Assembly: GCA_022823725.1 (NCBI GenBank)
Contig: JAJEHL010000027.1
Coordinates: 1-64,000, forward strand
DNA: 64,000 nucleotides
Direction of reading: 5' to 3'
Source: Candidatus Latescibacterota bacterium
GTDB taxonomy: Bacteria > Latescibacterota > UBA2968
How positions within the stretch are numbered: position 1 is the stretch's first letter; the number at the start of each line of letters is the position of its first letter. The notes under the pieces were generated by a model. It did no database searches. It was not told the origin of the DNA and saw only the letters and a list, made by a program, of their open reading frames with translations. Below, piece after piece: positions 2,199 to 62,203 of the stretch. Both the position numbers and the translations under genes were made by a program.

Positions 2199-3356
2199 AT
2201 GTTTTTAAAATTATTGAAATCAAAATGGGTGTTGGGTGCGGTCTTCGCTTTATTTTGCATTTTTAGCCCAATCACTTTGAAAGCATCACTGCCCGACTTT
2301 GATGGAAATGGCAAGGTCGATTTTGCCGATTTTCTACTTTTTGTAGCTGTATTTGGGCAATCGGCTATTGGGCAAAATGCGGTTTACGACCTGGACGCAA
2401 GTGGAACAGTTGATTTTGGAGATTTTTTAATTTTTGCCACTGCATTTGGGCAACCCATTTCTGATCCTGTTCGCGGTGTTAGCACGCAGGGTTTTGCAAC
2501 GAGGACAATATCCAATTTGCTCGATTGTCCTGGGGGGCGTATAAGTAGTGTGGGGACAATTACATCTGACGATGGTAATGTGTGGATTATGCCTGCCCAA
2601 ACGCAATACACAACCGCAAGACATGCATCGGATATGTATAACCAATGCACAGGTGTTTTCAGTTCTAATAGCAATGCTCTCAATTTGTCGGTTGTGCCAG
2701 TTGTAGAGATTGATCAAGAGGGTGAGACGATTACGGGATATATCTTTGCCGATAATTACTTTGAATTGTATGTCAACGGTACCTTGATTGCTGTTGATGC
2801 AGTTCCGTTCACGCCGTTTAATTCGAGCATGGTCCGGTTCAAGGTTAAGCGACCATTTACGATTGCAATGAAGTTGGTTGATTGGGAAGAGAATTTGGGG
2901 CTTGGTACAGAAGCTAATCGCAATTTTTTACACCATCCGGGAGATGGTGGTCTGGTAGCGAGTTTTCACGATGCCAATGGAAATACTGTTGCAATTACAA
3001 ATGGTCAATGGAAAGCGCAGACTTTCTATATCGCACCCATTAGAAATTTGAGTTGTATTGTCGAGAAGGAAACCGAGCATTTGTCCGGTGACTGTGACAC
3101 GCGGGGTACAAATGATGGCAGTCAATTTTACGCAATGCACTATCCCGTCCCATCTAACTGGTACGATAGCGACTTTGATGATTCAGCCTGGCCACAAGCC
3201 TATACTTATACGAATGCGACAGTTGGCGTGAACAACAAACCCGCCTATACGAATTTTACGGATCTATTTGATGATCCAGAACACGATGCACAATTTATAT
3301 GGTCGTCAAATCTCATTTTGGACAATGAGGTGATTGTGCGATATACCGTAAAGTAA
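2199..3356 (+). CDS. Secreted protein with paired dockerin-like EF-hand motifs
   Basis: A 385-residue exported protein. Residues 1-29 are a signal peptide with a long hydrophobic core. Two calcium-loop motifs follow at 33-54 (DFDGNGKVDFADFLLF) and 64-85 (DLDASGTVDFGDFLIF), each ending in a F-G-Q turn. This D-x-D-x-N/S-G-x-V-D-F pattern resembles dockerin or EF-hand repeats. The remaining 300 residues are beta-rich with several Trp and Cys and no motif that I recognise. The final 60 residues (SDFDDSAWPQAYTYTNATVG) resemble the galactose-binding-like fold of glycan-associated proteins. The signal peptide and first EF-hand are very similar, also at DNA level, to those of the gene at 7681. The function is unknown, though display or attachment at the cell surface is plausible. 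Confidence 0.7.
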   Translation: MFLKLLKSKWVLGAVFALFCIFSPITLKASLPDFDGNGKVDFADFLLFVAVFGQSAIGQNAVYDLDASGTVDFGDFLIFATAFGQPISDPVRGVSTQGFATRTISNLLDCPGGRISSVGTITSDDGNVWIMPAQTQYTTARHASDMYNQCTGVFSSNSNALNLSVVPVVEIDQEGETITGYIFADNYFELYVNGTLIAVDAVPFTPFNSSMVRFKVKRPFTIAMKLVDWEENLGLGTEANRNFLHHPGDGGLVASFHDANGNTVAITNGQWKAQTFYIAPIRNLSCIVEKETEHLSGDCDTRGTNDGSQFYAMHYPVPSNWYDSDFDDSAWPQAYTYTNATVGVNNKPAYTNFTDLFDDPEHDAQFIWSSNLILDNEVIVRYTVK

Positions 3357-5089: not shown

Positions 5090-7684
5090 ATGACGTGGCA
5101 ACAATTGAAGATGTTCGGATTGGTTTTTTGCCTGATGAGTGTGTTGGGCACCAGTTACGCAGAAGGGCACATGCTCTACAGCGATGAAAGTGACGTGACG
5201 GATTTCAATGACGACGGAAAAACGGACTTAGAGGATTTTATCCTGTTCGCAGCTGCATTTGGTTCGCAGCAGATACAATTCGATCTAAATCAGAATGGTC
5301 TGGTGGATCTTCCCGATTTTCTGGTGTTTATCGCTGCATTTGGACAGCCTGGCTCTGGATCCTCTGGTGGCACGGATGGCGATGCACCTGTGAGCGCACA
5401 AGCATTCCAGCACTTTGCAGACCGGCTGAATATCCAGTGGGACGATGACTTTTTGTATATCGAATCCGACGCTTTTCCCGATCACCGCATGATGGTGGGG
5501 ATTACAGCCTGGAATCAGCAGGTGCCTTTGCCACAGCCTTATCAGGGCGATAATGCATGGCAGATTCCATTGAAACCCGCGGTTGCAGATGTGCCAGTGT
5601 ATGCAAGCCAGACGCTGTTTCGGGGGGCTATTGGTCTGGCGATTAACGGTGTGCCGATTTTTAATCCCATCAAACAGAATGGCCGCACTGACACGTATTT
5701 GGCTGGGGAATTAGATGAATTTGGAGGGCATGCCGGTCGTGCGGACGACTATCACTACCATATCGCGCCTTTGTTTCTTACAGAAAAAGTGGGCGATGGT
5801 GTACCTATTGCGTATGCCCTGGATGGATACCCGATGTATGGAATCAATGAACCCGATGGTACCCCGGCGAAAGATCTGGACGATTTGAATGGACATTTCG
5901 ATGCAAATGGCAATTATCACTATCACAGCACGCTGGATTATCCCTATGTCAACGGTGGATTTAAGGGTGTTATTGAACTGGCCAGGGGAGAGGAAGTCGC
6001 AAATCAGCCCCGTACAAGGCCCGTTCGGCCTTCTGGGACGGGGATGAGGGCGAATATCACAGATTTTGTGAAGGATATAGATGGCTGGTATCGGCTTACG
6101 TATGAGGCAAATGGTGGAACATACGCGATTGCCTATTTTCTGAGACCAGATGGGGATTATGATTTTCAATTTGTAGATGCCAGCGGCAATATCACACGAC
6201 AGACTTACCGCTCCAATGGGAGTGTTGCGGTGGAAGGTGGTGGGGGAACGTCCGGTCAGGGCGGTGTGTCTAATGATTCAGGTCCGCAGAATGTAACCGA
6301 TCCACCCGATGCAGATTCCGAATCTTTGTTTGTTGCATCCGGGTTGTTGGGACGACCAACCGACAGATCCGTGACTGTCAATTTGGTTCCATCAGCAGAC
6401 CTGGAAATTTATCTGGAATATGGAACAGAATCAGGTGTTTACACAAAGCAGACATCTGTGATGGTGGGGACACGAGACACACCGATTGAAATTACGATGG
6501 ATGGGTTGCTTCCTAACACGCGGTATTATTATCGAACGCGTTACCGGCGTGCAGGAGAATCAGAGTTTAAAAGGCGACGCGAATATACGTTTCACACATA
6601 TCGTCCACCGGGTACAACATTCACTTTTTCAATTCAGGCCTGCGCCCATTTAGATGGTCGATCCAGCCTGGAACTCTATCATCGATCGCTGGAAAATGTC
6701 GCAGCATATCAGTCCGATTTTCTCATTGATCTCGGTGATACATTTATGTGCAACAAACACTCAGAACCACTTACGGCGACTGTAAGACCCGCACCCGATT
6801 ACGCAACCGTTGAGCGTCGGTATTTGTACGAGCGTGGGAATTTTGGAAAGATTACGCATTCTATTCCACTGTTTCTCGTCAATGGCAACCACGACGGGGA
6901 AGAGGGATGGTCATTGAATGGCACGCCGAACAATGTGGCTGTTTGGGCTACAATGGCGCGAAAAAAATATTATCCCAATCCCATACCAGATGTGTTCTAT
7001 TCCGGGGATTCCGATGAAGAGCAATTTGTCGGTGTGAGAGAGAGTTATTATTCGTGGTCGTGGGGAGATGCGCTATTTGTCGTGATTGATCCTTATTGGT
7101 ACACGACGACAAAACCCAAACGCGGCGGTGTATCGGATAACTGGCACTGGACTCTTGGCGAAAAGCAATATCAGTGGCTTCGGCAGGTGCTGGAGACGAG
7201 TGATGCGACCTTTAAGTTTGTATTTTCACATCAACTGGTGGGGGGTATTCATACAGGAGAAGGACGCGGCGGTATTGAGATGGCTCCGTATTACGAATGG
7301 GGCGGAAAGAATAGAGACGACAGTTGGGGCTTTGACACAAAACGCGCGGGATGGTACAAGCCGATTCATCAATTGATGGTAGAGAACAATGTGTCGGCTT
7401 TTTTTCACGGTCATGACCATGTGTTTGTAAAGCAGGAGTTAGATGGGGTGGTGTATCAGGTGTTGCCACAACCCAGTAATACAAATTATCGGAATGGCGA
7501 TAAGCTGGCGATTGAAGGGGGATATTTTAGTGGTACTGTCCTGGGAAATTCGGGGCATCTGCGTGTGACTGTTTCTCCAGATGATGTTGTGGTGGAATAC
7601 ATCAGAGCTTATCTGCCAGGGGATGAAGGTGCTGGACGGACAAATGGCGAGGTGGGCTATTCTTATCGGATAGAGAAAAGATGA
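5090..7684 (+). CDS. Secreted dockerin-like / YHYH / metallophosphatase fusion
   Basis: An 864-residue exported protein with at least four modules. These are a signal peptide (1-24), two dockerin-like EF-hand motifs (about 38-58 and 64-85), a YHYH domain (about 110-310) with DDYHYHIAPLF near 218 and NGNYHYHSTLDYPY near 274, and a C-terminal phosphoesterase. The phosphoesterase part starts with a fibronectin-like beta domain (about 410-500), as in purple acid phosphatase or PhoD proteins. It then shows the calcineurin-type metal ligands DLGDTF (about 546), NGNHDG (about 598), SHQ (about 713) and HGHDH (about 772). It probably hydrolyses phosphate esters outside the cytoplasm. The start has a strong AGGAGGTGGCAA ribosome site. 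The stop overlaps the next start in ATGA, indicating coupled translation. Confidence 0.85.
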   Translation: MTWQQLKMFGLVFCLMSVLGTSYAEGHMLYSDESDVTDFNDDGKTDLEDFILFAAAFGSQQIQFDLNQNGLVDLPDFLVFIAAFGQPGSGSSGGTDGDAPVSAQAFQHFADRLNIQWDDDFLYIESDAFPDHRMMVGITAWNQQVPLPQPYQGDNAWQIPLKPAVADVPVYASQTLFRGAIGLAINGVPIFNPIKQNGRTDTYLAGELDEFGGHAGRADDYHYHIAPLFLTEKVGDGVPIAYALDGYPMYGINEPDGTPAKDLDDLNGHFDANGNYHYHSTLDYPYVNGGFKGVIELARGEEVANQPRTRPVRPSGTGMRANITDFVKDIDGWYRLTYEANGGTYAIAYFLRPDGDYDFQFVDASGNITRQTYRSNGSVAVEGGGGTSGQGGVSNDSGPQNVTDPPDADSESLFVASGLLGRPTDRSVTVNLVPSADLEIYLEYGTESGVYTKQTSVMVGTRDTPIEITMDGLLPNTRYYYRTRYRRAGESEFKRRREYTFHTYRPPGTTFTFSIQACAHLDGRSSLELYHRSLENVAAYQSDFLIDLGDTFMCNKHSEPLTATVRPAPDYATVERRYLYERGNFGKITHSIPLFLVNGNHDGEEGWSLNGTPNNVAVWATMARKKYYPNPIPDVFYSGDSDEEQFVGVRESYYSWSWGDALFVVIDPYWYTTTKPKRGGVSDNWHWTLGEKQYQWLRQVLETSDATFKFVFSHQLVGGIHTGEGRGGIEMAPYYEWGGKNRDDSWGFDTKRAGWYKPIHQLMVENNVSAFFHGHDHVFVKQELDGVVYQVLPQPSNTNYRNGDKLAIEGGYFSGTVLGNSGHLRVTVSPDDVVVEYIRAYLPGDEGAGRTNGEVGYSYRIEKR

Positions 7685-9042
7685 CCAGATATACAGAAAG
7701 GGCTTTGGGTGTGGGCCTCGTTTTATTTTGTATTCTTAGCCCAATTACTTTGAAAGCGTCACTGTCTGATTTTGATGGAAATGGCAAGGTCGATTTTCTC
7801 GATTTTCTCGCCTTTGCTGGTGCTTTTGGCACCGATCAAGCCCAATTTGATCTCGATCAAAATGGGCAGGTAGATTTTCCTGACTTTCTGATATTTGTTA
7901 GCGCGTATGGTGCGAATGGTGACACATCCTTACCCGAGCCGTCTGCATTTTACAAGCTACCAGATGATTGGCAGGTTGTACCTATAGAACAACAAAATTG
8001 TGCAAAAGAGGATCTTGTTGGTGTTGATCATGTTTATGTTGAAACGGCATCAAAATTGTTGGTGTGGCTTACTGGCACGGTTGAAGATGCACATTATGAA
8101 CCCATTGGTGAGGTGGCAAATTATTTTGGTTTTGCAGCACTCAGGAACGAGATTCGGGAACGCGATGGGAACAATGCAGATGCCTCTTTTCGGGGGGCAG
8201 TCTATAAGGAAGTCCTAGAGCTTTTGGATGATACTCAACGGTCGTTATTATATGAATTATTAGCCGAGCATCGAACGGCAATCAACGGATTTTTGGAAGA
8301 CCGTGTTTTGTTGGTCGATGAATTGTGGCGATTAAAAAATAACGTTACAATGGACTATGTTCGCGTGATGAACTTGATACAATCAATTGGGGAATACGAA
8401 GGCATCATTGCGGTCATAACGGCCCAATACTATGCAAAATTACTACCTCTTTTAAGCTCCGAACAGGTGCAATACTTAGAAGATATTCGTCGTGGCGTTG
8501 TCACTGTAGATCAGATGCAAAATACCTCATTGCTATATGCTGCAGAAGCGAAAACTCAATTTAACGCACTTAGCCGTGATGATGCTACATTGATGCAGGA
8601 AGTGTCGAGCAAGTTCGTTGCTTGGGCAACGGGTGATTTAGATGACGCGCTCTTTTTGCCAAGAGGTAAAATTGGCAACTACTTTGGGTTTTCAAGCTTT
8701 CGGTATGTAGATCGAACATCAGTGAGTCGTGGGGGGGCTGCGGATTTGATCGATCAGGTATTAACCCCAGATCAACAAGCCATTCTTTGTGGTCTCTCGA
8801 CTAATGTTGTGGGTTATACCCAGGATTATGTTAATGGCCGAGCGGCTTTGATCGCGAAATTGGATGCGCTCAAAAAAGATCCCACGCTGCCAGTAGATCA
8901 TCTTGTAACGGACTATGCTGGCTTGGCTGGCCAGGGTGAGGGCCGCAGAGTGGTGGTAGAAGCATTAACATATCATCTCATAGAGTCTATGATGAGTGCA
9001 GAACAAATCCAAAGTCTTAAAGCACTTAGAGTCACAAATTAG
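7681..9042 (+). CDS. Secreted dockerin-like protein with duplicated LTxxQ-type helical repeats
   Basis: A 453-residue exported protein. After the signal peptide come two EF-hand-like motifs (DFDGNGKVDFLDFLAF, DLDQNGQVDFPDFLIF). The rest is helical and internally duplicated. SKLLVWLTGTVEDAHYEPIG plus NYFGF at about 122-152 is repeated as SKFVAWATGDLDDALFLPRG plus NYFGF at about 308-338. Four short motifs, LLDDTQRSLL, LLSSEQVQYL, VLTPDQQAIL and MMSAEQIQSL, are spaced at about 180, 258, 359 and 437. They resemble the LTxxQ motif of Spy/CpxP proteins, so this may be a tandem array of such units. It starts inside the stop of the metallophosphatase gene. The function is unknown; a secreted chaperone or scaffold is possible. 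Confidence 0.7.
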   Translation: MTRYTERALGVGLVLFCILSPITLKASLSDFDGNGKVDFLDFLAFAGAFGTDQAQFDLDQNGQVDFPDFLIFVSAYGANGDTSLPEPSAFYKLPDDWQVVPIEQQNCAKEDLVGVDHVYVETASKLLVWLTGTVEDAHYEPIGEVANYFGFAALRNEIRERDGNNADASFRGAVYKEVLELLDDTQRSLLYELLAEHRTAINGFLEDRVLLVDELWRLKNNVTMDYVRVMNLIQSIGEYEGIIAVITAQYYAKLLPLLSSEQVQYLEDIRRGVVTVDQMQNTSLLYAAEAKTQFNALSRDDATLMQEVSSKFVAWATGDLDDALFLPRGKIGNYFGFSSFRYVDRTSVSRGGAADLIDQVLTPDQQAILCGLSTNVVGYTQDYVNGRAALIAKLDALKKDPTLPVDHLVTDYAGLAGQGEGRRVVVEALTYHLIESMMSAEQIQSLKALRVTN

Positions 9043-52241: not shown

Positions 52242-53822
52242 ATGCGTTGGCATATTCTCGCCTTGCTATTCATGGTGCTTCTGATCCAACCACTTCGAGC
52301 CGATGTCGCGTTAGAACAAGTCTCCAGTCCAGATTTTGATAATAGTGGCGTGGTTGATTTTCCCGACTTTTTGCTTTTTGTCGCGAGGTTCGGGGCGCGC
52401 CAGGGCGATGAAAAGTATGATGATCGTTTTGACCTGGATGGCAATGGCGAGATTGAATTCGGCGATTTTTTGCGTTTTGCCGCAAATTTTGGGAAAGCAG
52501 TCGCGCCAAATGGAGGGACGCCCCCTGATGGGAAAATTCTCGGCTCGTTATTTATATCGAAGGTATGGGCTGGGCATCCCGTTAGTTTTGATCTGTTGAC
52601 TTATGGCGATGTACAATTTGTCGCATTTTACGATGCCAACCGAAAAATGACGGTAGGGATGAGAAATTTAGATGCAGCAACTTGGACATTTGAACAGCCC
52701 AGAGGTGTATGGCTGGAAAATCGAGGGCGACTGTCGTCGGAAACTGGATGGGACACCCACAATTACCTGACGATGACCATTGACGCCGACGATCACATTC
52801 ATCTGAGCGGCAATATGCACGTGGATCCGCTGATTTACTTTCGCACAAAGCGGCCACTCGATGTGACGAGTTTTGAGCGCATTGATTCTATGGTGGGAGA
52901 AAGTGAAGACCGCTGTACTTATCCCGTGTTTATGCGCGGTCCTAATAATGAGTTAATTTTTCGGTATCGGGATGGCAGTAGTGGCAATGCGGTCGAATTT
53001 TACAATATCTATGATGTTGAGACCAGAACCTGGCGAAGGTTGCACAATACGCCGTTATTGGATGGGTTAGGGCGCATGAATGCGTACGCACGCAGCCCCC
53101 AGAAAGGTCCCGATGGGATGTTCCACATGATCTGGATGTGGCGCGATACACCCGATGCTGCGACCAATCACGATATCTCTTATGCCCGCAGCCGAGACCT
53201 GGTCGCCTGGGAAACGGGTGGCGGCGATGCGCTGGAATTGCCGATTACAATAACAAGCGGAGCTATTGTCGATCCCGTGCCGCCGAGGGGCGGGATGATC
53301 AATATGACGCAGTCATTGGGGTTTGATCATCAGAAACGCCCGGTGATTAGCTATCACAAGCACGATGAGAATGGATACACACAAGCCTATTGTGCGCGGT
53401 TGGAATACGGCGAATGGGTCATTTACAAGGTGAGTGATTGGACCTATCGGTGGGAATTTGGCGGAGGGGGATCAATTGTTGCAGAGATTCGGTTGGGCAG
53501 CGTAAAGGTGGCATCCGATGGGGGCCTGAGTATGAGCTATATACATGTGAAAGAAGGACGGGGAATCTGGAAGTTGGATCCCCAAACCATGCAAGTGATC
53601 GGGACCTATCCGCCGCCTCCGAGTGCGATACCCGAAGAATTGGCGCGAGTGACTTCTCAATATCCGGGCATGAGAATCAACACGCGCTGGGCGCGGGGGG
53701 CGGGCACAAGGCCCGGCGAGCGATACCTCTTGCGCTGGGAAACGCTGGGGCGCGATCGAGACCTGCCCCGAGAGGAGATCCCACCGCCGAGTGACTTGAG
53801 GCTTTATATTTTCGAGAGATGA
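52242..53822 (+). CDS. Secreted dockerin-like BNR-4 repeat protein
   Basis: A 526-residue exported protein. A signal peptide spans 1-20. Two EF-hand-like motifs lie at 31-52 (DFDNSGVVDFPDFLLF) and 64-84 (DLDGNGEIEFGDFLRF). From about 100 a beta-propeller of the BNR-4 family follows, with NYLTMTIDADDHIHLSGNMH, EDRCTYPVFMRG, FRYRDGSSGNA and GLGRMNAYARSPQKG. BNR-4 proteins include polysaccharide lyases, such as those acting on ulvan or rhamnogalacturonan, and putative glycosidases. The His/Arg/Tyr residues in these motifs could form such an active site. It probably binds or cleaves a uronic-acid-containing glycan outside the cell. Confidence 0.82.
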   Translation: MRWHILALLFMVLLIQPLRADVALEQVSSPDFDNSGVVDFPDFLLFVARFGARQGDEKYDDRFDLDGNGEIEFGDFLRFAANFGKAVAPNGGTPPDGKILGSLFISKVWAGHPVSFDLLTYGDVQFVAFYDANRKMTVGMRNLDAATWTFEQPRGVWLENRGRLSSETGWDTHNYLTMTIDADDHIHLSGNMHVDPLIYFRTKRPLDVTSFERIDSMVGESEDRCTYPVFMRGPNNELIFRYRDGSSGNAVEFYNIYDVETRTWRRLHNTPLLDGLGRMNAYARSPQKGPDGMFHMIWMWRDTPDAATNHDISYARSRDLVAWETGGGDALELPITITSGAIVDPVPPRGGMINMTQSLGFDHQKRPVISYHKHDENGYTQAYCARLEYGEWVIYKVSDWTYRWEFGGGGSIVAEIRLGSVKVASDGGLSMSYIHVKEGRGIWKLDPQTMQVIGTYPPPPSAIPEELARVTSQYPGMRINTRWARGAGTRPGERYLLRWETLGRDRDLPREEIPPPSDLRLYIFER

Positions 53823-56835: not shown

Positions 56836-58287
56836 TCAATAAAGCGGTCTGTAACGCAGGTCGCCGCCTTCTTCGCGTTGTTTTTTGTAATCGGCTTCAA
56901 GTGCCTCTCGCACCCAGTATTGCGGGGCAGATGTGTAGTTCGATTGGTGTTTCTGGTTGTCAATCCAGTGCTCGATCAAGCGGGATTTGAGGTCTTGTTC
57001 AACGTGGGTGAGTTGCGCGTCGCCCGCGCGGTTAGCAATTTCGTCGGGGTCGTTTTCGAGGTCGTAAAGTTCGGCAGATCCATCGGCGTAGTGCGCGTAT
57101 TTGTAGCCTTCGGTTCGCACCATAGCGCGACCGCCGATTTCGCAAAATGCGGCTTGCCGAATGGTCGCGGTGGGGTCTTTGAATAGTGGGCGAATGTCTT
57201 CTCCTTGAAGTGTGCTCGGCAGTTCGGCATCGCAGGCGTGATAAATAAGTGGCACGAGATCAATGATACTGACGAGGCCCGGTGCGCGCTGATCGGCGGG
57301 AATGTCGGGACCGCGAATGATGAGAGGCACGCGCGACATGCAGTCGTAAAAGAAGCCTTTGAAGGGCAGGCCGTGATCGCCCAATGCGTCGCCGTGATCG
57401 CTGGTGAAGATGATGAGGGTGTCGTCGAGTACGCGGTGGGCTTCCAGTGCGGCGATGATTTTACCAATGCCTTCGTCAATTAAGCTGATGTTGGCGTAGT
57501 AGTGCTCGCGCCATTTTCGGTAGTGTTCAGGGGTTGCTTGTGAATAGTCCTGGCGAAACATGGAGTTGGACAGGGTGCCGCGACCGCGGTCTCTTTGTGC
57601 GGGTGGTTTATTGACGAGTTCTTCTGGGGAACCAACGGGGTCGGGTATGGGCGCGTCGGCATACATACGGGCCATGTCTTCTGGCGGATCGTAGGGGTCG
57701 TGCGGTCCGGGAAAGCTGACCCAGGCGGCAAAGGGGTCGTTTCCATTTTTTTGGAGCCATTCGGCAGCCTGATCACCGACAAAGCCATCGACGTGAAATT
57801 TTCGCTCGCGCGGTGTGATAGATGCGCCCAGATTTTCGTAATACCCCGGCAATGTGGTGGGGTGGGGCCGATCGAGGCCGTGTGCAGCGAGAAATTGTAC
57901 GTGGTGGTCGGGCAGAAAAATGTGCCGTTTGTCTTCGGCCATGATGCGTTCGTCAAAGCCCTGGTGTGAGTCCCAGGGATGAAAGTGCATTTTGCCGATG
58001 GCTGCGGTGCGCCGTCCGGTTTGCGAGATGATGCGCGGCCATGTCGGCACGTGATCGGGTAACCAGTTGCCATTGCCGAGCACGCCGGTTACGCTGGGGT
58101 ACTGCCCGCTCATGATAGACGCGCGGCAGGGTACGCATACAGGGGAGGGGACAATGCAATGGTCAAATACCATGCCTTCGCGTGCAAGGCGGTCGAGGTT
58201 GGGGGTTTGCATAAAGTCGAGGCCATAACAGGGGAGGCTGTCCCAGCGCTGTTGATCGGTGGTGATTAAAAGGAGGTTGCGAGCCAT
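56836..58287 (-). CDS. Sulfatase with C-V-P-C-R signature
   Basis: A 483-residue type I sulfatase. LLITTDQQRWDSLPCYG gives the first ligands, Cys51 is in SPVCVPCRASIMSGQY (C-V-P-C-R, with Cys54 where Ser or Ala is usual), GKMHFHPWDSHQGFDER the catalytic Lys region, SFPGPHDPYDPPE the catalytic His, and FTSDHGDALGDHGLPFKG the second metal set. No signal peptide. ATG 58287 has GGAGCACCTT upstream; the open frame extends 32 codons further with no homology. It heads the sulfatase-enolase-dehydrogenase operon. Confidence 0.92.
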   Translation of the reverse strand: MARNLLLITTDQQRWDSLPCYGLDFMQTPNLDRLAREGMVFDHCIVPSPVCVPCRASIMSGQYPSVTGVLGNGNWLPDHVPTWPRIISQTGRRTAAIGKMHFHPWDSHQGFDERIMAEDKRHIFLPDHHVQFLAAHGLDRPHPTTLPGYYENLGASITPRERKFHVDGFVGDQAAEWLQKNGNDPFAAWVSFPGPHDPYDPPEDMARMYADAPIPDPVGSPEELVNKPPAQRDRGRGTLSNSMFRQDYSQATPEHYRKWREHYYANISLIDEGIGKIIAALEAHRVLDDTLIIFTSDHGDALGDHGLPFKGFFYDCMSRVPLIIRGPDIPADQRAPGLVSIIDLVPLIYHACDAELPSTLQGEDIRPLFKDPTATIRQAAFCEIGGRAMVRTEGYKYAHYADGSAELYDLENDPDEIANRAGDAQLTHVEQDLKSRLIEHWIDNQKHQSNYTSAPQYWVREALEADYKKQREEGGDLRYRPLY

Positions 58288-58393
58288 AAGGTGCTCCGGA
58301 ATGAGGAAGAATTCAAGTGGATCAAAAGGACGGGATAAGATAGGACGGGGAGATAGGTCTGGCAAAGTATTTTTGTTGGTCAAGTTAAAGAAA

Positions 58394-58422
58394 TTGACGT
58401 TGACTCAAACAAGTTTTATGTT
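58394..58422 (+). promoter_or_regulatory. Promoter of the ATPase/TOPRIM module
   Basis: TTGACG (58394-58399), a 17-base spacer and TATGTT (58417-58422) lie 54 bases before the ATPase start, in the divergent gap with the sulfatase operon. A second overlapping TTGACT occurs at 58400. Confidence 0.5.
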
Positions 58423-58475
58423 AGTATTCATTGAAGCATACTACCTTTAGCGTCTGTTTGTCGAGGAGGCTTGCA

Positions 58476-59645
58476 ATGTTACAGGAATTTCGCGTTGATA
58501 ATTTTAAGTCTTTGATTAACATTGTATTTAAGCCACAGGAAATCAATCTGCTTCTTGGTAAGAACAATTCCGGAAAGACCAATCTCTGTCAGGCTTTGCA
58601 GTTTGTGGGGTGTAGTTCAATTTTCCCGCTCAATGAGTGTGCGGAGAAAGTTGCGGGTGGACGGTTTGGTATGACCAATTTCGCGTTTGAAAAATCCACC
58701 ATAGATTTTTATGTCCGAGCAAAAGTGCCTTATGAGGAAGAGGTTCTGGCCTTTGAATATGAACTTACGATTTCACCACCAAAGGACGGTATGGGAGAAG
58801 TAAAAGTTGAGCGAGAGATTTTGAGTGTTACCGGTGGGAAATTTGAGCAAACCATTCTGCTTGAAAATATCTCTGGACGAATACGGCTTTTGCAGGAGAA
58901 TGATTTTATAGATGGAACGGTGAATTATGTTGAAACGAGTGCGTCCAGAGATGCAACAATGTTGCAGCGTCTCTACGATTCGGAAAACAATGTATGTGTC
59001 AATCGCTTCAAACGCTATTTGAGCAATTGGATCTGCTATGATCTTTCGGCTACTGCTATGAGAGGATCGGACTATAAGCCCAATGAGGTTTTTCTCAATA
59101 GCGACGGAAGCAATCTCGCTTCAGTGCTATACTGGTTAAAGACCCACAATGAACGAGATTATCGCAAGCTGATGAAAGTCATGCAAGTGATTGAGCCAAA
59201 ATTTGATATTATCAATTTTCCCGTTGGCTCGGAGAGTGTTGTGGTTATGCTTTTTGAAGATTCAGATGGACATTCATTGCCAGCCTGGAATGCTTCAAAT
59301 GGAACACTGCGATTTTTGGCCCTGACTTATGTCTTGTTGATTCAAACACAACTGATACTGGATTCGCGTCCATTGTTCATGATTGAGGAGCCGGAAAATG
59401 GCATTTATGTCGGTTTTCTAAAAACTCTACTCGAAATGATTGATCGGTCTCAGGGGCCTCAGATCATTTTTACCTCGCACGCGCCTTATTTTATTGATCT
59501 TTTTGACGAGTATTTGGACGGGATTTTTGTACTTGATCGCGACGAACAGCACACGTCGATTACACAACCAGATATTGATGAGGTGAAGACACGCCTTGAA
59601 CATTTTCCATTGGGAGAGCAGCATTTTCGGGAGATGTTGGGATGA
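58476..59645 (+). CDS. AAA/ABC-type ATPase (OLD/AAA_15-like)
   Basis: A 389-residue ATPase. Walker A is LLLGKNNSGKTNL (28-35), placed after the typical start EFRVDNFKSLINIVF. Walker B is PLFMIEEPENGIY near 300, followed by the switch His in IIFTSHAPYFIDLFD. The middle (about 60-250) is divergent, as in OLD-family and phage-defence ATPases. The gene overlaps the TOPRIM-like gene by four bases (ATGA), so the two products are made together. Such ATPase-TOPRIM pairs occur in anti-phage systems. ATG 58476 has a GAGGAGG ribosome site; an ATG at 58431 is in frame but lies within the likely leader. Confidence 0.85.
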   Translation: MLQEFRVDNFKSLINIVFKPQEINLLLGKNNSGKTNLCQALQFVGCSSIFPLNECAEKVAGGRFGMTNFAFEKSTIDFYVRAKVPYEEEVLAFEYELTISPPKDGMGEVKVEREILSVTGGKFEQTILLENISGRIRLLQENDFIDGTVNYVETSASRDATMLQRLYDSENNVCVNRFKRYLSNWICYDLSATAMRGSDYKPNEVFLNSDGSNLASVLYWLKTHNERDYRKLMKVMQVIEPKFDIINFPVGSESVVVMLFEDSDGHSLPAWNASNGTLRFLALTYVLLIQTQLILDSRPLFMIEEPENGIYVGFLKTLLEMIDRSQGPQIIFTSHAPYFIDLFDEYLDGIFVLDRDEQHTSITQPDIDEVKTRLEHFPLGEQHFREMLG

Positions 59646-60238
59646 AGATCGGGTATTATGTACAAGGGGATGCAGATGAAGCCGTTGTAAAGGGACTGGC
59701 GAAACGCTGGTGTCCCGATGCAGAATTGGCAGAGGGTAAGTTCAGAGGTGCGTCGAGGGAATCTTTCAGACGGGAGATTGCCAATTCCTTAAGGGATTTG
59801 AAAAGCGATAAAAGGTGTGATATTCTGGTTGTTTTAACGGATGCCGACGCAAATCTCTGGCGGGATGTCAAAAGACTCGAATGGGATAGGATTCCAGAAG
59901 ACTGTCAGCATTTGACCCTATTTGGTGTGGCTGATCGAAATATTGAGTGCTGGATGGCGATTGACCGGGGCGCTCTTGCCCGTGAATTAAAATGTCGTGT
60001 GGAGGAGATTCCCACAGATGATCCTTCTGATTTTATTAAACGGCATTTTGGATTGCCCGGCTCTAATAAACTTGATAAAGATGATGCAAAAGCGCGTATC
60101 AGAGATTATGTTGCGGAGGCACCATTGAGGGCGTGGATTAGGAATTCAGATTCCTTTGAGGATTTTTACGAAGATGCGCGTGATTTAGCTGCTCAAAATG
60201 AGTGTTCGATTCCCAATGAAAGGGAACGCGGAGATTGA
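59642..60238 (+). CDS. TOPRIM-like protein paired with the ATPase (DUF4276/DUF4435-type)
   Basis: A 198-residue protein. The N-terminus IGYYVQGDADEAVVKGLAKR resembles the first TOPRIM strand with acidic residues at 9-13. LVVLTDADANLW (63-73) gives the D-x-D pair, and GVADRNIECWMAIDRG (95-110) resembles the R-x-I-E-x-W motif of DUF4276-type proteins. The C-terminus carries a charged helical region. A metal-dependent nuclease role is inferred, not shown. It starts inside the ATPase stop (ATGA) and is followed by a strong terminator, so the pair forms a closed two-gene unit. Confidence 0.7.
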   Translation: MKIGYYVQGDADEAVVKGLAKRWCPDAELAEGKFRGASRESFRREIANSLRDLKSDKRCDILVVLTDADANLWRDVKRLEWDRIPEDCQHLTLFGVADRNIECWMAIDRGALARELKCRVEEIPTDDPSDFIKRHFGLPGSNKLDKDDAKARIRDYVAEAPLRAWIRNSDSFEDFYEDARDLAAQNECSIPNERERGD

Positions 60239-60261
60239 ATACGGTTATATTAGACAAAGAT

Positions 60262-60302
60262 AGAGCCTGTTCTGTATCATTCAGAGCAGGCTCTTGTTTT
60301 TT
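60262..60302 (+). terminator. Rho-independent terminator after the ATPase/TOPRIM module
   Basis: AGAGCCTGTTCTG pairs with CAGAGCAGGCTCT (12 Watson-Crick pairs and one wobble) around a 7-base loop, followed by TGTTTTTT. Confidence 0.92.
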
Positions 60303-60397
60303 ATGCATTGTGCTGTTGCGTATATCGAGGTCTAACACTATCTTGTGGGGCGATTTGTTTACACTTTTGAACTGCTGCCGCATCGGAAGGATGTGTT

Positions 60398-62203
60398 ATG
60401 GATATGTTGCTGGATGATGTCAAATTGCCGTCGCATTTAGATCGTCTGACAGATACGGATCTGGATCTCAGGCGCGTTCAAGGGATGGTGCGCGTTGGTT
60501 CTGAAGTATTATTTGTGGTATTGAGCGGCTCCTTGTTCAAGTTGACGACGGAGAGGGCTGTGCTCGAGCCAGTGTTTGATTCTGTGACACGCTTATGGCC
60601 AGCCGATGAAAATTGTGCGCTGGTTGAATCAGAAGGCGCGCTATGGCGGGTTGATCTGGATGGTACAAAGGGGCGTTTGCTCACTATTCCCAGAGGGACG
60701 ATTTCCTATGATGTCAAATGGGGAATACGGGGCCTGGTTGTGGGTGCTCTTGTAGATCGCCGCGAGCCTGTGGATCCCAAAGCACCGTATTTTTATCCGA
60801 CACAGAGAGAAAAGGTCACGCTGTGCAGATATGCTTCAATTGAGGGTTGGCACGATCTCGCCGATGTGCCAGAAGGATGTGGGAACCTGAGTATGTGCCG
60901 GTATGGTCGTCGAATCGCGTGGCGAGAATCTCTTAATGTGATTCCAGAAGAAGCGCAGCGAGGAGAGTTTTACGGTTTTGATTTGAATACAAATGAGGTA
61001 CGAAAGTTGACCGAGGGTGCGGGCAAAGCCGGTCGCGTGGTGATGGCTTCGGATGGCTCTGCGCTGCTTTACGAAGCCAATCACGAGGCGGTGTATCCCA
61101 TTACAACGCATACGGATTTGTGGTGGTTGTCCTGGGATGGCAACGAACGGGTGAATCTCACAGAGGGTGGGCGTTGTATTGCGCGCTTTGGCTGGGGGCC
61201 TCGGGAAAAAACCGCCTGGGTATCGTTTGTGGAGGGTTTGGAAACACAGACGGAAGTGCTGGCTCTGGATGGAACGCCAGAAGGGACATTTGGCGATTTG
61301 GACGCGGTATCAGATATTGTATGGATGCCCGATGGTCTGGCTATTTTTGAAACCGAAGACGCGGAGCGATTTCCCGCAATTTGGACGGGAACGCGCCGTG
61401 TGCCTTTGCCTCAGCCAGCGAATTACGAGGATTTGCGCGTTTTAGAAATGGAATGGGAAGCCCCCGATGGCATGGAGATTGAAGGGGTGCTCTACGAAGC
61501 AGACGGCCTTAGAGGCCCTGCGCCGTTGCTGGTGTCGGCACATGGCGGGCCTGCTGCGCCAGTGGAAAATGTGCGGAGTGAGGCGGTTCGATATCGCCAT
61601 TTGCTGCGGGCGGGCTACCGGGTTTTTCGTCCGGCATTTCGGGGTTCTCTGGGTTTTGGAGATGATTTTGCGCGGAGCAATATCGGATGCCAGGGGCGGG
61701 CTGATCTCGAAGATATTATTTCGGGTATTGATTTTTTGATTGAAGAAGGGCTTGCATTAAAAAACAGGGTGGGTATTTTCGGTGCGTCTTACGGGGGATA
61801 TATGACTCTGCGGGCACTGTCTGTGACGGATCGATTCCATGCCGGTGTCGCGCTTTTCGGTTTTATCGACAATAGGCGGATGACCCTGGAGACGGGTGAT
61901 TTTACGTATGAGACTGAGTATTTGGAACCGCTATCGTGGCCGATTACAGAGCGTACGCGCGGGGGCGATGTGTTTCCCAATTTGGGTGCGATTCGCACAC
62001 CGCTGCTGTTGTTACACGGCGACCAGGACCCGATTTGTCCACTGTCGGAATCCAAAGTCACTTGTCGCGCGCTGGAAGCACTGGGGGTTCCGGTGGGGCT
62101 GGTGGTGTATCCGGGCGAGGGACATGGGTTTCGGAAAGAGAAAAACCGCCGCGATAGTGCGCGGCGGACGTTGGCATGGTTTTTGAACTACTTGCCGCCG
62201 TGA
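60398..62203 (+). CDS. Prolyl oligopeptidase family (S9) serine peptidase
   Basis: A 601-residue protein with an N-terminal beta-propeller (to about 350) and a C-terminal alpha/beta-hydrolase domain. The catalytic triad is Ser464 in FGASYGGYMTLRAL, Asp544 in LHGDQDPICPLSES and His576 in YPGEGHGFRKEKN. SAHGGPAAPVENVR and FRPAFRGSLGFGDDFA form the oxyanion-side loops. It cleaves oligopeptides or acyl groups. No signal peptide. The ribosome site GGAAGG is 11 bases upstream. It overlaps the convergent Gfo/Idh gene by 16 bases at the end. Confidence 0.92.
   Translation: MDMLLDDVKLPSHLDRLTDTDLDLRRVQGMVRVGSEVLFVVLSGSLFKLTTERAVLEPVFDSVTRLWPADENCALVESEGALWRVDLDGTKGRLLTIPRGTISYDVKWGIRGLVVGALVDRREPVDPKAPYFYPTQREKVTLCRYASIEGWHDLADVPEGCGNLSMCRYGRRIAWRESLNVIPEEAQRGEFYGFDLNTNEVRKLTEGAGKAGRVVMASDGSALLYEANHEAVYPITTHTDLWWLSWDGNERVNLTEGGRCIARFGWGPREKTAWVSFVEGLETQTEVLALDGTPEGTFGDLDAVSDIVWMPDGLAIFETEDAERFPAIWTGTRRVPLPQPANYEDLRVLEMEWEAPDGMEIEGVLYEADGLRGPAPLLVSAHGGPAAPVENVRSEAVRYRHLLRAGYRVFRPAFRGSLGFGDDFARSNIGCQGRADLEDIISGIDFLIEEGLALKNRVGIFGASYGGYMTLRALSVTDRFHAGVALFGFIDNRRMTLETGDFTYETEYLEPLSWPITERTRGGDVFPNLGAIRTPLLLLHGDQDPICPLSESKVTCRALEALGVPVGLVVYPGEGHGFRKEKNRRDSARRTLAWFLNYLPP

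Follow-up and report, generated by a model that had tools for sequence, protein, structure and literature searches.

A divergent HEC-01-class ATPase/Toprim-like gene pair as a candidate stand-alone phage-defence unit

Do two overlapping genes on one bacterial contig make up a self-contained unit against phages, and to which known system are they closest? We addressed this question for an ATPase gene (gene A) and its small partner (gene B) in the window, the whole stretch of 64,000 nucleotides analysed here. The reading we favour, at a probability of about 0.6, is that the pair is a divergent, stand-alone two-gene phage-defence candidate of the HEC-01 class.

Layout of the pair and its ATPase

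Gene A (58476-59645, + strand, 389 aa) was assigned as an HEC-01A-like ABC/OLD-type ATPase from profile matches, a structure model and an alignment of relatives, and gene B (59642-60238, + strand, 198 aa) as a Toprim-like protein of the DUF4276/HEC-01B superfamily from profiles, a clade alignment and the AF2 topology. The two genes are adjacent on the + strand, and the stop of A overlaps the start of B in a 4-bp ATGA (59642-59645, + strand), exactly as the original prediction had described. A single scan over 84,980 species genomes yielded 15 relatives, and two more distant ones were added, giving 17. A lay directly 5' of B in 17/17 relatives, and the same 4-bp overlap was present in 14 of the 15 first measured. 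This constant order, like the purifying selection on both genes described below, goes beyond chance. The start of A was placed at the ATG at 58476 rather than at the upstream TTG at 58431, because the relatives align from that Met and a Shine-Dalgarno-like GAGGAGG (58463-58469, + strand) lies 6 bases 5' of it; the same motif was found at two related loci (L035 and L036).

The pair had also been credited with its own promoter and terminator, and of these a promoter-like site was borne out, the terminator not. A consensus scan (9/12) identified two promoter-like sites on the + strand (58394-58427), TTGACG-17-TATGTT (58394-58422) and TTGACT-16-TAGTAT (58400-58427), which are partly kept in the congener G032 and fall within the inserted stretch described below; by themselves they are weak, since the scan returned 8 such sites compared to 4.4 +/- 2.1 in shuffled sequence. 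The terminator hairpin (60262-60294, + strand; 13-bp stem and T-run) lies just outside the insert and also stands at this site in congeners that lack the pair. As the empty sites retain the hairpin, we dropped it as evidence of a self-contained unit. The possibility that it is a dispersed genome repeat was rejected, as the 14-mer GCCTGTTCTRTATC occurs once in the window's own genome, G000, and once in genome G038, each time directly 3' of the pair.

Profile searches with A returned Pfam AAA_21 (2e-24) and, as the best PADLOC model, HEC-01A PDLC04182 (5.2e-41, residues 2-372). Against solved chains, the A profile matched OLD 6p74 (3e-10, the nearest OLD), Eco8 (2e-7), GajA (2e-6) and AriA (1.5e-5). 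The structure model (pLDDT 87) matched the heads of Rad50, SMC, PtuA and GajA in Foldseek, with 8eea and retron Ec78 among the matches. All ABC-ATPase motifs were intact, as judged over 15 relatives: the Walker A GKNNSGKT (residues 28-35; 58557-58580, + strand), with G28, N30, G33 and K34 invariant; the ABC-signature-like SNGTLRF (residues 274-280; 59295-59315, + strand), with S274, G276, T277 and L278 invariant; the Walker B LFMIEEPENG (residues 300-309; 59373-59402, + strand), with E304, E305, P306, E307 and N308 invariant; and the H-loop TSH (residues 333-335; 59472-59480, + strand), with T333 invariant and H335 nearly so. A conserved LGExHFRxML marks the C-terminal end of A across relatives. 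These results confirm the predicted OLD-like ATPase, with AAA_21 and 6p74 placing A in the OLD/SMC type.

Family, fold and altered acid site of gene B

B itself matched no Pfam and no NCBIfam model, and its sole PADLOC models were HEC-01B (3e-7, 1.5e-4 and 4e-3), the best of which, PDLC04194, was a partial match over residues 5-127. PDLC04194 was matched by 15 of the 16 clade members at E up to 0.1, the remaining one falling below threshold. PF14103 (DUF4276) did not match B and was found in 3/16 clade members (best 1.9e-4). When the clade of 16 sequences was aligned by hhalign with a comparison set of 20 DUF4276 proteins, mostly PF14103 matches, the match reached 98.3% (E 1.3e-14, 174 columns), so that B is best described as a divergent DUF4276/HEC-01B-type protein. 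Across the phylum, Pfam DUF4276 was matched by 18 of the 23 B proteins that the HEC-01B model recovers, the window protein and two close relatives being among the 23. Thus, one of the three families named beforehand for profile comparison, DUF4276, was recovered by way of the clade. Neither B nor its clade matched DUF4435 (no AriB in PADLOC, no PF14491 in Pfam), and no OLD-like TOPRIM match was found in Pfam.

The AF2 model of B, built from the 16-row alignment (pLDDT 93.1), has the order b1-a1-b2-a2-b3-a3-b4-a4, with Q8 after b1, D67xD69 ending b3 and E102/W104 in a4. When element order was compared, it fitted the Toprim b-a-b-a-b-a-b arrangement with the DxD at the end of strand 3. Foldseek with this model returned no solved (PDB) Toprim at E up to 0.001 and nothing significant in BFVD; the best-shaped viral match was an RloB-like protein (TM 0.44, E 0.1, not significant). 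As no solved structure matches, the Toprim label for B rests on topology, motifs and family, and the small TOPRIM-like protein proposed originally holds as a DxD protein of predicted Toprim-like topology.

Two of the conserved DUF4276 features are present in B, namely the DxD (DAD, D67-x-D69; 59840-59848, + strand) at the end of strand 3 and the family ExW motif (E102-C-W104; 59945-59953, + strand), which is invariant in all DUF4276 relatives aligned. The third, the Toprim motif I Glu, is replaced by Gln8 (59663-59665, + strand). In the 20 other DUF4276 proteins this Glu is invariant and the DxD nearly so. Within the clade, residues 8/69 were Q/D in eight members (the window and 7 others), E/N in 6, E/D in 1 and Q/N in 1, so that exactly one acid is swapped for its amide in most members; the share of Gln over Glu at position 8 may be inflated, as Q8 lies within one of the search patterns, MKIGYYVQ, although both residues occur. 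To account for the Q/D state, two or more changes on the tree are required. The E8/N69 and Q8/D69 states looked coupled by these counts (Fisher P = 0.009), but the coupling is weakened by shared ancestry and by the two outlying, more distant relatives, which are Q/D and E/D. Residue 67 was always Asp, and E102 and W104 were likewise invariant across the clade, the conservation of the DRNIECW stretch being partly search-made, since DRNIECW was also a search pattern.

In AriB, the Toprim mutant E26A loses tRNA cleavage (PMC12409363), and by analogy E26 would be the counterpart of Q8 in B. The change from Glu8 to Gln would point to a protein that differs from AriB in its use of metal, or that is no plain two-metal nuclease. 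A further step would be to read B as a Toprim without catalytic activity that binds nucleotide or nucleic acid, leaving the ATPase as the effector. Motif I carries Gln in two or more separate lineages of the clade, and most of the others have Asn at the second DxD position. There is also a precedent in E. coli YbjD, an OLD protein able to protect without its Toprim part, whose anti-phage phenotypes need the ATPase while the Toprim domain is dispensable (PMC13261556). The residues argue the other way, because D67, E102 and W104 do not vary and the changes are isosteric (E/Q and D/N) rather than random decay. Selection on B does so as well: its dN/dS was 0.27 compared to G032 and 0.23 compared to G038 (A: 0.11 and 0.20, respectively). 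Both genes are under purifying selection, and the low dN/dS together with the three invariant residues shows that B is being kept, not decaying. We regard a dead B as possible but doubtful, and retain the defence pair with B as its putative effector.

Insertion, spread and surroundings

We compared positions 57900-60800 by blastn with the orthologous sulfatase/S9-peptidase junctions of congeners. The pair lies in an inserted unit of about 1.87 kb (58394-60261, no strand assigned) that is missing from the same site in six congeners and present in one (G032). The junction of G031 aligns over 57900-58393 and then from 60262 onwards with zero bases between, and five further junctions gave the same edges to within some 30 bases. 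A search for a target-site duplication turned up AAAGA at both edges, which is too short and too rich in A to carry weight, and the pair comes without a recombinase gene. The S9 and fabZ trees do not resolve the congeners, and the pair may have been gained at this site or lost elsewhere. G038 carries the pair at another site, with an ABC-F gene on one side and fabZ on the other; in congeners this junction is short and holds no insert. A similar hairpin follows the pair, and the 74 bases 5' of it share 84% identity with the stretch upstream of the S9 peptidase of G038 itself (G038:C1:496185-496258 and 994866-994949; L036 and L060), which suggests, from sequence likeness, that this copy came from the S9 site. 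The 74 bases look like a piece of the pair's earlier site that was taken along, its order permuted.

Other relatives revealed similar placements. At an Anaerolineales locus (L040, 6286-9906; OY/JABTUK010000002.1) the pair separates nuoE from nuoF without a seam, and B runs 8 bases into the start of nuoF; in the nearest relative (NuoF 94% identical), nuoE and nuoF are adjacent, about 24 bases apart. Elsewhere it was found between guaB and guaA, after purH and before valS. Clean insertions between such housekeeping genes (nuoE/nuoF, guaB/guaA and beside purH), away from defence islands, would also suit a selfish unit of toxin-antitoxin type, in which A would restrain B as a growth inhibitor, the unit would be kept mainly because its loss is costly and it sits between useful genes, and phage protection would be incidental. 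We consider this unlikely, as most congeners lack the pair at the sulfatase/S9-peptidase junction with no sign of cost, one relative lies within a defence operon, and the toxicity of B is only putative.

The patchy spread of the pair speaks for defence. The 17 relatives span at least seven phyla, the 15 from the scan including Latescibacterota, Planctomycetota, Gammaproteobacteria, Anaerolineales, WOR-3 (Caldifarciminota), Ignavibacteriota and Sumerlaeota. The trees of A and B showed the same main clades and did not follow host phyla; the nearest kin of the window pair outside its phylum were one gammaproteobacterium and Planctomycetota. The clade is rare, occurring in 2 of 392 Planctomycetota and 1 of 400 Chloroflexota genomes. 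B was absent from the phage, plasmid and viral-contig collections at the sensitivity used, and from PHROGs. A housekeeping or regulatory ATPase pair outside defence, comparable to the archaeal OLD-class Cran1 in the cell cycle (PMC12796447), would fit operon partners such as the nuo, gua, pur and valS genes. This is very improbable given the patchy presence of the pair, its different neighbours in each lineage, its spread across phyla against host phylogeny and its absence from most congeners.

In WOR-3 (L043, 2262-12770), the pair lies between HmaA (1.3e-194, upstream) and HmaB (2.2e-62, downstream), the Hma-embedded setting from which the name HEC derives (PMC12988326). A large Eco57I-type methylase gene follows 3', and this is a true Hma-embedded copy. 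About 13 relative contexts were informative, one being this defence operon and the rest housekeeping or metabolic genes; homologues never lying near defence genes would have counted against the original prediction, which escapes refutation on this point, but only just. In the window, the genes flanking the pair encode a sulfatase and an S9 peptidase. No Hma operon surrounds the pair, and a defence island was rejected, as ten neighbours in and beyond the window had no PADLOC match. The window holds many sulfatase, mandelate-racemase/enolase-like and Gfo/Idh-like genes (9055-40000 and 56836-58383), and is a region of sulfated-polysaccharide and sugar-acid catabolism rather than a defence island. 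Large proteins encoded at 2199-3356, 5090-7684, 7681-9042 and 52242-53822 share a dockerin-like DFDGNGKVDFxDFLxFxxxFG, which may be a module for anchoring or secretion peculiar to this lineage.

Related pairs are frequent in this phylum. In a search with PDLC04194, 25 of 64 genomes gave at least one match and one gave as many as six, with an AAA ATPase gene directly 5' where the locus was long enough. G000 carries three more ATPase and DUF4276-type pairs of other subfamilies (C16:12000-12596, C2:368088-368504 and C45, L122: 533-2361), and G038 has six HEC-01B-model matches, so the family looks expanded in the genus. Common as such ATPase/DUF4276 pairs are here, the term DUF4276 was not found in the literature searched.

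Proposed function and comparison with known systems

The proposal that this ATPase/Toprim module is a defence candidate gained support from the HEC-01A (5e-41) and HEC-01B (3e-7) matches and from the one relative in an Hma operon. By analogy, the pair is most likely a PARIS-like phage-defence pair of ATPase sensor and Toprim effector. In PARIS, an AriA hexamer holds AriB until a phage protein triggers its release (PMC11455837). In the present pair, A would assemble in an ATP-dependent manner, sense infection and keep B inactive; an infection trigger would free or reposition B; and the released B would halt growth by attacking or binding nucleic acid, as in PARIS-like abortive infection. Coupled translation and joint inheritance of A and B fit such a model of sensor or holder and effector. 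The patchy spread over at least seven phyla, the strict co-inheritance of A and B and the Hma-embedded relative speak for defence. Against it stand the lack of a defence island around the pair in the window, the mostly housekeeping contexts, the lack of a mobile-element copy in the collections searched, the lost motif I acid and the missing match to a solved Toprim.

A more specific reading is that the pair belongs to a separate clade in which B gave up one carboxylate (Glu8 or Asp69) and whose members spread as minimal inserts of two genes, seamless between genes even in essential operons and without a recombinase of its own. With one carboxylate lost, B would have an altered chemistry or a non-cutting sensor role. 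We put this forward tentatively, as rather unlikely. The clade is a natural experiment, since the Glu-to-Gln and Asp-to-Asn substitutions that one would introduce to probe a Toprim site have already arisen in it, and it can tell whether protection by such partners depends on cutting nucleic acid. It further supplies dated examples, resolved to the base, of how a two-gene defence candidate comes into genomes and is lost from them, one of them between the genes of a complex I operon.

Several systems have an ATPase related to A and differ in the partner. OLD nucleases, Gabija GajA and the retron Eco8 effector have a related ATPase head. In class 1 OLD proteins, ATPase and Toprim form one protein, whereas here they are split over two ORFs and A extends no further than the ATPase, stopping at residue 389. 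Gabija was rejected, as the window pair has no GajB helicase, its neighbours being the sulfatase and the S9 peptidase; unlike retron Eco8, the pair adjoins no reverse transcriptase. A matched the AbiLi model (1.5e-20), and AbiL was rejected as no AbiLii model matches B. For MADS (Mad3/Mad4), A matched mad3 (2e-18); the system was rejected, as mad4 reached just 0.026 in 3/16 clade members and other MADS genes are not adjacent to the window pair. The ATPase fold of A resembles PtuA of Septu and retrons (Foldseek 8eea, retron Ec78), and Septu was rejected as B is no HNH nuclease.

PARIS (AriA/AriB, proposed as OLD class 4) likewise encodes an ABC ATPase and a Toprim protein as separate genes, ATPase first, and solved AriA is among the matches of A. 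With the PADLOC AriA models, A scored 1e-25 and 3e-17, less well than with HEC-01A. B matches neither AriB nor DUF4435, and its motif I Glu is Gln, whereas AriB is dead as E26A. Membership of PARIS was rejected on the AriB and PF14491 results for B and its clade, and the PARIS-type resemblance noted originally survives as an analogy of design. HEC-01, the "Hma-embedded candidate 01" of PADLOC (AAA ATPase and DUF4276), shares the adjacent same-strand pair, the strong match of A and the copy inside an Hma operon. The pair differs from it in that B stands at the edge of the HEC-01B models, is missed by Pfam DUF4276 and belongs to a clade in which most members have an active-site acid replaced. 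The HEC-01 class is known from computation and little studied, and the clade, the altered acid site and the seamless insertions are the new details. On its profile matches, the pair is a divergent member of HEC-01 and not of PARIS.
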